From NCBI GenBank assembly GCA_025999455.1, contig AP024683.1, forward strand, positions 1,495,501 through 1,559,500: a stretch of 64,000 nt of DNA. Direction: 5' to 3'. Under the pieces are notes generated by a model. That model saw only the letters and a program-made list of their open reading frames with translations. It was not told the DNA's origin and ran no database searches. Position numbers and translations under genes: made by a program. The stretch comes from Geminicoccaceae bacterium. GTDB taxonomy: Bacteria > Pseudomonadota > Alphaproteobacteria > Geminicoccales > Geminicoccaceae. Shown here in pieces: positions 56,397-58,809 of this stretch (its first letter is position 1; each line of letters begins with the position of its first letter).

Positions 56397-56909
56397 ATGC
56401 CGACCCGCCGGGGTGTGGTGCCCCTGCTCGTGAGTGGTCTTCTGCTGCCCTGCCCCGGGCGCGCTCAACCGCTCGCCGGCTTGCTCGCCGATCGGGTCGA
56501 GGTGCGGAAGCGCGAGCGGGTGATGGAGCTCTGGAACGGCGAGCTCTTGCTGCACCGCTTCCGGGTGGCCCTCGGCCGCCGTCCCGAGGGGCACAAGGTC
56601 GAAGAAGGCGACGGGCGGACGCCCGAGGGTCGCTACGAGCTCACCGAGTTCCTGCCCAAGAGCTACTTTTACCGGGCGATCCGGATCTCCTACCCGAACG
56701 AGGAGGACCGCCGGCGGGCCCGCGAGCTCGGCGTGCGCCCGGGCGGGGACATCTTGATCCACGGGCTCGATCCCCTGATCGCGCGACGGTTCCGCCGAGA
56801 TCACTGGTTGTTCAATTGGACGCGGGGCTGTATCGCGGTCACGGACGAGGAAATGGACATCGTCTGGGCGAGCGTCACCCCCGGAACGCCGATCGAGATC
56901 AAGCCCTGA
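56397..56909 (+). CDS. L,D-transpeptidase (YkuD domain), exported
   Basis: A 170-residue secreted enzyme with a signal peptide (about 1-23) and a YkuD catalytic domain with His122 (ILIHGLD) and nucleophile Cys145 (WTRGCIAVTDEEMD). It makes 3-3 peptidoglycan crosslinks or joins proteins to meso-diaminopimelate. It is followed by a lipoprotein gene and a second L,D-transpeptidase gene, suggesting a cell-wall anchoring unit. Confidence 0.9.
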   Translation: MPTRRGVVPLLVSGLLLPCPGRAQPLAGLLADRVEVRKRERVMELWNGELLLHRFRVALGRRPEGHKVEEGDGRTPEGRYELTEFLPKSYFYRAIRISYPNEEDRRRARELGVRPGGDILIHGLDPLIARRFRRDHWLFNWTRGCIAVTDEEMDIVWASVTPGTPIEIKP

Positions 56910-56966
56910 GGGGAGCGGGTGACCGAGCCGGCACCCGGCCCCGTTCGCCAGCGAGGAGGAGAAGCG

Positions 56967-57221
56967 ATGAAGAAGCTTTCGACGATCGCGGCCGTGGCGC
57001 CGCTGCTGTTCTTGGGTGCCTGCGCGACCAAGGGCGACATCGAGTCGCTCCGCCAGGAGATCGCCGGTGTGCGGGCGATCGCCCAGAGCGCCGAGCAGAA
57101 GGCCGCCGCGGCCGAAGCCGCCTCCCGCCAGGCCGCGGCCGACGCCCAGCGGGCGGCCCAGGACGCGGCGATCGCGGGCGAGAAGGCCGACCGCATCTTC
57201 CGCGCCGGCCTGCGCAAGTGA
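56967..57221 (+). CDS. Lpp-like alanine-zipper lipoprotein ending in Lys
   Basis: An 84-residue lipoprotein. The signal ends with the lipobox LGAC (Cys19). The mature part is a continuous Ala-rich helix, like the trimeric coiled coil of Braun lipoprotein, and the last residue is Lys84 (GLRK). In enterobacteria the terminal Lys of Lpp is joined to peptidoglycan by L,D-transpeptidases. The gene sits between two such enzymes and overlaps the second by four bases. Homology to Lpp is by architecture, not clear sequence identity. Confidence 0.75.
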   Translation: MKKLSTIAAVAPLLFLGACATKGDIESLRQEIAGVRAIAQSAEQKAAAAEAASRQAAADAQRAAQDAAIAGEKADRIFRAGLRK

Positions 57222-58294
57222 GACCCGCGGGCACTTCCGCCCGGGGCGCGGGCACCGGTGCGCCGGACCCTCGTCGCCCGGTCGGGAGTGCCCCGCTCGC
57301 GCGCCGGCGGTTCCTCGCCGGCGTTGCGGCGCTGCCGTTCGGGGCGTGCGCGGCCCTCGCCGCGGTGCCGCGAACCGGCGATCTGATCGGGGCGCTCCGC
57401 TTCCATCTCACCCGGCCGGAGGACACGCTCCTCGACGTCGCGGTCGCCAACGACGTCGGCATCCTCGCGATCTCGGCGGCCAATCCGGGGATCGACCCCT
57501 GGGTCCCGGGTGCCGACCAGCTGATCCTGCTCCCGACCGCGCATCTTTTGCCCGACGCGCCGCGCGAGGGCATCGTCATCAACAAGGCCGAGCTCGGCCT
57601 CTATTGGTTCCCCAAGCGCGGCGAGATCCGCCGTCACGCGATCGGGGTGGGGCGCGAAGGCTTCGACACGCCCGTGGGCGAGACCCGGATCGTCCGCAAG
57701 CAGAAGGATCCGACCTGGTACCCGACGGCGAGCACCCGGGCCGACCGACCGGAACTCCCGCCCGTGGTCCCGCCCGGGCCCGACAACCCGCTCGGCCGCC
57801 ACGCCCTCTATCTCGGCTGGCCCACCTACCTGATCCACGGCACGAACAAGCCCTACGGCGTCGGTCGGCGGGTGAGCCGCGGCTGCATCCGCATGTATCC
57901 GGCCGCGGTCGAGCGGCTCTACGAGGAGGTGCCGATCGGGACGCGGGTCACGGTCGTCGACCAGCAAGTCAAGGCCGGCTGGCACGAGGGCGAGCTCTAT
58001 CTCGAGGCGCACCCCGACCTCGGCCAGCTCGAGGAGCTCGAAGAGAGCTACGCTTTCACCCCGCGCCCGGGTGCGATCGACGAGGCGGCGCTCGCCCTCG
58101 TCCGGCGCAAGGCGGGGGAGGAGATCGCGCGGGTGGACTGGGACCGGGTCGAGGCCGAGCTCGTCGCCCGGCGGGGTATCCCGGTCCGGATCACGCGGCC
58201 GTTGCCGCCCACCCTCGCCGCGGACGATCCGCTGTCCGAGCCGGTCGAGGAGAGCGGCGACTACCTCGGCGGCGGGCTGCGCGGGATCTATTGA
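57218..58294 (+). CDS. L,D-transpeptidase with LysM-like domain and Tat-like signal
   Basis: A 358-residue secreted enzyme. ARRRFLAGVAAL at 28-39 is a twin-arginine-type signal. A LysM-like peptidoglycan-binding segment covers about 64-107. The YkuD domain (about 118-250) has His207 (YLIHGTN) and Cys223 (SRGCIRMYP). About 100 C-terminal residues are of unknown fold. A GTG start overlaps the lipoprotein stop. This is the usual ErfK/YbiS-type architecture. Confidence 0.9.
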   Translation: MRPAGTSARGAGTGAPDPRRPVGSAPLARRRFLAGVAALPFGACAALAAVPRTGDLIGALRFHLTRPEDTLLDVAVANDVGILAISAANPGIDPWVPGADQLILLPTAHLLPDAPREGIVINKAELGLYWFPKRGEIRRHAIGVGREGFDTPVGETRIVRKQKDPTWYPTASTRADRPELPPVVPPGPDNPLGRHALYLGWPTYLIHGTNKPYGVGRRVSRGCIRMYPAAVERLYEEVPIGTRVTVVDQQVKAGWHEGELYLEAHPDLGQLEELEESYAFTPRPGAIDEAALALVRRKAGEEIARVDWDRVEAELVARRGIPVRITRPLPPTLAADDPLSEPVEESGDYLGGGLRGIY

Positions 58295-58362: not shown

Positions 58363-58809
58363 GTGGAGGGGCAGACGGGCTTGGCCCTCGACACGCTCAA
58401 GATCGTCAAGCGGCTCAAGGAAGCCGGGCTCGAGGAGCGTCAGGCCGAGGCGATCGGCGAGGTGCTGTTCGAGACCCGCGAGTTCGACCTCGCCCAGCTC
58501 GCGACCAAGGCCGATCTCGCGCTGTTGCGGGCGGAGATGCGGTCGGAGATGCACGCACTCCGCACCGAGCTCCTGGGCGAGATGGACCGCCGGTTCGCGG
58601 CGGTCGAGGGCGAGATGCACCGCCGGTTCGCCGCGGTCGACGCGCGGTTCGCGGCGCTCGAAGCGGAGATGGACCGCCGGTTCGCGGCGGTCGACGCCAA
58701 GCTCGCGGTGGTCCAGACCGAGCTTTCCATGCTCAAATGGATGATCGGCGGGGTGGGGTTCGGCCTCCTCCTCCTGATCGTCCGCTCCTTCTGGCCCGGC
58801 GCGCCCTGA
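58363..58809 (+). CDS. DUF1640-type coiled-coil protein with C-terminal membrane anchor
   Basis: A 148-residue protein with a short helical head (about 5-50), a coiled coil built from repeats of the form E-M-x-R-R-F-A-A-V (about 70-115) and one C-terminal transmembrane helix (about 123-142). It resembles DUF1640/CCDC90 proteins, relatives of the mitochondrial calcium uniporter regulator MCUR1. It is followed closely by the convergent M20 gene. GTG start. Confidence 0.75.
   Translation: MEGQTGLALDTLKIVKRLKEAGLEERQAEAIGEVLFETREFDLAQLATKADLALLRAEMRSEMHALRTELLGEMDRRFAAVEGEMHRRFAAVDARFAALEAEMDRRFAAVDAKLAVVQTELSMLKWMIGGVGFGLLLLIVRSFWPGAP

Follow-up and report, generated by a model that had tools for sequence, protein, structure and literature searches.

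Within the window, a stretch of 64,000 nucleotides from a bacterium of the family Geminicoccaceae (order Geminicoccales, class Alphaproteobacteria), three genes on one strand encode an upstream YkuD enzyme (Ldt1), a small lipoprotein (Lpp) and a downstream YkuD enzyme (Ldt2). A preliminary description of this DNA had placed an 84-residue lipoprotein ending in Lys between two YkuD genes, and this arrangement was confirmed by translation and by the Pfam and NCBIfam scores given below. The overlap reported there between lpp and the second enzyme gene is indeed found in the window, where the start of ldt2 and the stop of lpp share four bases (GTGA), but it is not conserved, the median gap between the two genes in Geminicoccaceae being 11 bases. 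The 5′ neighbor of ldt1 lies on the opposite strand and is N-formylglutamate amidohydrolase-like; the closest named loci belong mostly to metagenome-assembled genomes of Geminicoccaceae. Scanning the locus for sigma-70-like promoters found none, a scan that says little at such a G+C content, and the three genes are predicted to be co-transcribed. Downstream of ldt2 lies a coiled-coil ORF that is CCDC90-like and whose C-terminal segment is hydrophobic.

Table 1. Coordinates of the genes and features at the locus (positions of the window) and of related loci in other genomes (positions after the locus label).
Feature	Position	Strand	Basis
ldt1, YkuD gene, 170 aa	56397..56909	+	translation
Probable strong ribosome-binding site, gaggaggag, ahead of lpp	56954..56962	+	sequence inspection, inference
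lpp, lipoprotein gene, 84 aa	56967..57221	+	translation
Lipobox Cys codon (Cys19 of LGAC)	57021..57023	+	sequence
Lys84 codon, C-terminal, predicted attachment residue	57216..57218	+	conservation in ldt2 neighbors
ldt2, YkuD gene, 358 aa, GTG start	57218..58294	+	translation
CCDC90-like coiled-coil ORF	58363-58809		
lpp of G008 (Geminicoccaceae)	L025:1489-1734		
Alanine-zipper lipoprotein gene, Azospirillum brasilense Sp7 plasmid p3	L216:2127-2390		
Three-gene locus, Thermohalobaculum (Limibaculum) sediminis	L061:3722-5819		
Interrupted lipoprotein frame of G172	L148:1092-1448		
Micavibrio-type lipoproteins	L051:5223-5414, L160:3036-3263, L162:784-1002, L188:3471-3743, L189:3368-3565		

The Lpp protein sequence, MKKLSTIAAVAPLLFLGACATKGDIES...KADRIFRAGLRK (84 aa), scored above the cut-offs of both NCBIfam NF040598 (Lpp/OprI family alanine-zipper lipoprotein; 44.6 vs 43) and Pfam PF11839 (Alanine_zipper; 29.8 vs 23.1 bits), so that automatic annotation would already assign it the Lpp/OprI name. 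NF040598 was matched by all 23 Lpp homologues, PRK15396 (major outer membrane lipoprotein) was matched weakly by two relatives, and for Pfam LPP (PF04728) no match to Lpp was listed at E values up to 10, weak matches being dropped by the HMMER filters. The protein begins with a signal peptide and a lipobox, LGAC, whose Cys19 shows 90% or more conservation in the family alignment, and the residue at +2 of this Cys is Ala, which by the general sorting rule is compatible with sorting to the outer membrane. The mature helix of 66 residues, with the C-terminus IFRAGLRK, has a heptad pattern: in the best register, 83% of the core positions are apolar compared with 35% of the other positions, and 9 of 5000 shuffled sequences were equally strong. 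Most members in Geminicoccaceae share the mature length of 66 residues, and two have 59, that is, exactly one heptad less. A search of the source genome returned lpp as the lone Lpp/OprI match above noise, so a second Lpp above noise was not found there, and a plasmid collection searched with Lpp yielded no match to the lipoprotein itself. In the same genome, 16 OmpA-type domains scored above the cut-off, and other tethers thus exist besides lpp.

The downstream enzyme, Ldt2, has a YkuD domain scoring 81.5 bits (Pfam cut-off 23.4) and the catalytic motif SRGC(223)IR(225), which equals the transpeptidase signature SxGCxR; the Arg at position Cys+2 was found in 124 of approximately 128 Ldt2 homologues. 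Its N-terminal part comprises a twin-Arg (Tat-like) leader, RRRFLAG, with the twin Arg conserved across the family alignment, and then a LysM-like region. Ldt2 matched the NCBIfam L,D-transpeptidase models LdtE, PRK10260 and PRK10190 with E values of 1e-48 to 1e-52, all below the equivalog cut-offs, and its profile match to the structure 4lzh (E 4e-63) extends over nearly the whole chain. By these sequence matches, Ldt2 belongs with the ErfK/YbiS/YcfS/YnhG lineage, which includes the enzymes anchoring Lpp and OprI in E. coli and Pseudomonas. In this lineage, LdtPae2 is the sole enzyme anchoring OprI and gives the product Tri-KR (PMC10434034). Both anchoring and cross-linking (LdtE) activities occur in the lineage, and the adjacency of the genes favors anchoring as the predicted activity of Ldt2.

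The family sample consisted of 31 Geminicoccaceae genomes and the class sample of 387 evenly drawn alphaproteobacterial genomes. In the family, ldt2 was present in 23 of the 31 genomes, and some members were without the cassette genes. The neighborhood reported in the preliminary description is retained in these relatives, as lpp adjoined ldt2 at 22 of the 23 loci and ldt1 lay within 1.5 kb of it at all 23, as well as at nine other loci. In the class sample, ldt2 was found in 46 genomes and lpp, which was searched independently, in 20, with 19 of the 20 adjoining ldt2; the one lpp match without ldt2 (G067, L187) proved to be an OmpA-type protein and was discarded as false. A closer look at the flanks revealed a lipoprotein at 30 of the 37 ldt2 loci outside Geminicoccaceae, which represent 17 further families and hence 18 in total, counted over the listed family codes. 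The gene order varies: lpp and ldt2 may be codirectional, with lpp first, or convergent, ldt1 may lie between them or diverge, and in one genome (G116) lpp adjoins ldt1 with ldt2 located elsewhere. Thermohalobaculum (Limibaculum) sediminis of the Rhodobacterales has all three genes in a rearranged form of the cassette, in which lpp and ldt1 lie on the strand opposite to ldt2 and face it; in Pseudomonas, oprI adjoins an ldt2-family gene. The linkage of lpp and ldt2 is thus reciprocal, and its recurrence in several gene orders and strands indicates more than mere inherited synteny, and the lone lpp match in the genome together with the linkage counts in family and class indicates that the arrangement is not due to chance. 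Judged from the gene content of the sampled genomes, a Braun-lipoprotein-type system thus recurs patchily across Alphaproteobacteria. In G172, the lipoprotein frame adjoining ldt2 is interrupted by an in-frame stop, due to either an assembly error or a pseudogene.

The terminal Lys was found to be conserved, so that the refuting condition set in the preliminary description, a Lys that varies among orthologues, did not hold. Leu82 and Arg83 are invariant in the Geminicoccaceae Lpp alignment and Lys84 is present in 22 of 23 members; all 22 Lpp proteins encoded beside ldt2 in this family end in LRK, and Lys is the last residue of all 30 encoded beside ldt2 in the 17 other alphaproteobacterial families. 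It is likewise last in 74 of 74 lipoproteins found at 80 named alpha- and gammaproteobacterial loci, Pseudomonas OprI included, and a Lys ending was not a requirement of the lipoprotein searches. More than 20% of the periplasmic proteins and lipoproteins of E. coli have a C-terminal Lys (PMC12274547), so Lys alone proves little; such a background, however, does not explain a near-invariant Lys across many families, always in a protein whose gene adjoins that of the enzyme. These counts bear on the alternative that Lpp is a free coiled-coil spacer or scaffold without covalent attachment, next to an Ldt that merely cross-links peptidoglycan. This we regard as improbable: the cross-linking LdtE of E. 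coli does fall in the LdtA-C lineage (PMC10434034) and gives Ldt2 its best NCBIfam match, and an Azospirillum lipoprotein ends in RKTRS, but all 52 tallied alphaproteobacterial ldt2 neighbors have Lys as the last residue, and the sole family member that has lpp without ldt2, G008, has lost it. The Lpp of G008 ends in LRQ, with Gln in place of Lys84, and its genome has neither ldt2 nor ldt1, which suggests decay of the attachment system. The other exception is located on plasmid p3 of Azospirillum brasilense Sp7, where the alanine-zipper lipoprotein ending in RKTRS does not have Lys as its last residue and its annotated gene is followed after 17 bases by an L,D-transpeptidase gene. Lpp as the equivalent of Braun's lipoprotein with its own linking enzyme, as first proposed, is thus supported by family membership, the lipobox, the heptads, the near-invariant Lys and the adjoining transpeptidase of the Lpp/OprI lineage.

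The upstream enzyme differs at the active site. Ldt1 consists of a short N-terminal leader and a single YkuD domain (61.9 bits; Pfam cut-off 23.4) with the catalytic motif NWTRGC(145)IA(147)VT, and Ala, not Arg, occupies Cys+2 in all 33 Ldt1 homologues. YkuD transpeptidases have Arg at this position and DpaA-like hydrolases Ala or Asn (PMC8263019, PMC10434034); DpaA is an amidase that detaches Lpp, and Ala at Cys+2 is the DpaA-type signature (PMC8263019). The earlier claim that both YkuD enzymes link therefore stands for Ldt2, with its SxGCxR motif and its Lpp/OprI-anchoring lineage, and is not supported for Ldt1, whose Ala at Cys+2 and best profile match, DpaA, point elsewhere; two equal linking enzymes were rejected on this residue. 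A related alternative, in which both are transpeptidases, one linking the lipoprotein and the other making 3-3 or 1-3 cross-links, could appeal to two YkuD domains over the Pfam cut-off and to the 1-3 cross-linking YkuD enzymes of Alphaproteobacteria (PMC10864386). We consider it very improbable, since no Ldt1 homologue has the Cys+2 Arg, whereas the 1,3-cross-linker LdtGo has Cys264 and Arg266 (PMC10864386), and an LdtGo-type function was rejected for Ldt1 on this residue; in addition, two of the four YkuD proteins of the source genome, other than Ldt1 and Ldt2, carry the Arg-type motif SHGC[VM]R and are available for cross-linking.

Absence of the Cys+2 Arg is shared by the L,D-carboxypeptidases Csd6, Pgp2 and Bd1075 (PMC8263019), and this raises a further alternative, which keeps Lpp and Ldt2 as the tether and makes Ldt1 an L,D-carboxypeptidase of the Csd6/Pgp2 type that trims D-Ala from tetrapeptides and so tunes the stem peptides. 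In an AlphaFold prediction with a mean pLDDT of 84, the Ldt1 fold is indeed nearest to Csd6 (Z 16.7), Pgp2 and Bd1075, and DpaA (8ikr) was absent among the fold matches listed, an absence that counts neither way. Moreover, Ldt1 scored far below the DpaA equivalog cut-off of NF040599 (38.8 vs 365) and is therefore filed as DpaA-like, not as DpaA; this LdtF/DpaA/YafK model was, at scores below the equivalog cut-off, the sole NCBIfam match for 10 of 10 Ldt1 homologues. Against a carboxypeptidase, the sequence profile clearly favors DpaA, with 8ikr as the top PDB match at 53.5 bits and Pgp2 and Bd1075 at 24 bits. The D-Ala pocket of the carboxypeptidases contains a Trp (Csd6 Trp158; PMC10653827), and at this position, aligned by sequence motif, the 33 Ldt1 homologues have Met (25), Leu (5), Val, Glu or Phe (1 each) and in no case Trp; the window Ldt1 has Leu, and DpaA has Met (Met133), as do most Ldt1 homologues. 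Lys83 and the aromatic Tyr109 have been implicated in the activity of DpaA (PMC10653827), and their equivalents in Ldt1 are Lys67 and Phe91, the former kept in all 33 homologues. With the recurrent linkage of ldt1 to the lipoprotein gene also speaking against it, we hold the carboxypeptidase reading to be rather unlikely. Ldt1 shares with DpaA (LdtF, YafK) of E. coli the YkuD fold, the Cys+2 Ala, the Lys83 equivalent and an aromatic residue at the Tyr109 position, but is shorter and has no DpaA C-terminal tail. From these sequence features, Ldt1 is a predicted DpaA-like YkuD hydrolase that probably detaches the lipoprotein.

The locus is thus very probably a cassette for a covalent outer-membrane-to-peptidoglycan tether of the Lpp/OprI type, with Ldt1 probably cutting the link, and is best read as detach, tether and attach rather than as two linkers. 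After export, Lpp would receive its lipid at Cys19 and be sorted to the outer membrane, where it would form an alanine-zipper coiled coil, a trimer by analogy with E. coli Lpp. With the meso-DAP of a stem peptide, Ldt2 would form an acyl-enzyme, from which the stem peptide would be transferred to the side-chain amine of Lys84 to generate a Tripeptide-Lys-Arg link; this attachment step we predict with high confidence. The same Lys84 link would probably be cut by Ldt1, a step to which we attach moderate confidence, and the three genes would in this way provide attachment, tether and detachment.

Besides DpaA, four known systems resemble parts of this cassette. The OprI/LdtPae2 pair of Pseudomonas aeruginosa is similar in its alanine-zipper lipoprotein ending in Arg-Lys that LdtPae2 anchors (PMC10434034), and an ldt2 homologue adjoins oprI in Pseudomonas genomes; there, however, the two genes converge, and their surroundings showed no gene of the ldt1 type, whereas the window locus comprises three genes on one strand. 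With E. coli Lpp and LdtA/LdtB/LdtC, the locus shares a lipid anchor, a heptad coiled coil, a C-terminal Arg-Lys and a YkuD linker; the mature E. coli Lpp has 58 residues compared with 66 here, and the window Lpp matches the Alanine_zipper model with no LPP (PF04728) match listed, weak matches being filtered. The E. coli lpp and LdtA/B/C genes are not clustered. The beta-barrel tethers of Brucella and Agrobacterium also involve a covalent link between outer membrane and peptidoglycan made by YkuD enzymes in Alphaproteobacteria, as predicted for the window, but their link is formed at the Ala-Asp N-terminus of a barrel and not at the C-terminal Lys of a lipoprotein. In Rhodobacter sphaeroides, the outer-membrane lipoprotein gene dalA similarly adjoins predicted Ldt genes (locus RSP_1199, dalA, RSP_1201); DalA, of approximately 18 kDa, is bound to peptidoglycan non-covalently (PMC10470522), unlike the predicted covalent Lpp of the window.

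Peptidoglycan-linked lipoproteins in Rhodobacter and Brucella have been described in older biochemical reports. In surveys, Lpp is confined to part of the Gammaproteobacteria, described as a subset or a subclade (PMC8263019, PMC12274547), its homologues were reported absent from most Alphaproteobacteria (PMC10470522), and those Alphaproteobacteria that have been studied use beta-barrel tethers (PMC11527210, PMC10787603). The earlier statement that members of this class largely use beta-barrels accordingly holds for those studied, but the Lpp type is no one-off, being found in 18 sampled families. Each part of the cassette is of a known kind, and the new elements are the combination of three genes in a cassette and its distribution in a class from which Lpp was reported to be missing; a partial literature search found no paper on such a cassette in Geminicoccaceae.

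With regard to origin, a recently acquired oprI-ldt module, transferred horizontally from Gammaproteobacteria, would be compatible with the tether mechanism, and the oprI-ldt pair is common in Gammaproteobacteria; Ldt2 of Nevskiaceae even groups with the alphaproteobacterial sequences, implying that transfer between the classes probably occurred. Nevertheless, in a quick tree of 87 Ldt2 sequences, whose root was not inferred and which bears on recent rather than ancient transfer, the main gammaproteobacterial clade, of 19 rows (SH-aLRT 99), excludes most alphaproteobacterial Ldt2 sequences, and 14 rows from Geminicoccaceae are united in one group with a support of 98. Presence in 18 families also speaks against a single recent event, and we judge such an origin to be highly unlikely. 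We tentatively raise the possibility, somewhat less likely than not, that Lpp-type tethering is an old alphaproteobacterial trait rather than a speciality of a gammaproteobacterial subclade, existing partly as a compact cassette for attachment, tether and detachment in which making and breaking of the link are genetically coupled and the link is dynamically regulated.

If this is true, the cassette would offer a candidate source protein for Tri-Lys-Arg muropeptides that were reported in Rhodobacter sphaeroides with no protein assigned to them (PMC10470522), since Lpp-type proteins mostly end in Arg-Lys and would yield a Tri-Lys-Arg product. The joint presence of lpp and ldt2 in the 18 families bears on the age of the envelope link, and the locus provides a ready genetic system in which a predicted linker, the linked protein and a probable unlinker lie side by side. 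Azospirillum brasilense Sp7, which is cultured, has the lipoprotein-transpeptidase pair with a changed C-terminus and offers a natural experiment on the requirement for Lys as the last residue. In Micavibrio-type genomes, a set defined by one family code and one named Micavibrio MAG, no alanine-zipper lipoprotein was found; instead, a short lipoprotein that contains Pro, has no coiled coil and ends in Lys is encoded tail to tail with an ldt2 homologue, and possibly represents another kind of tether.
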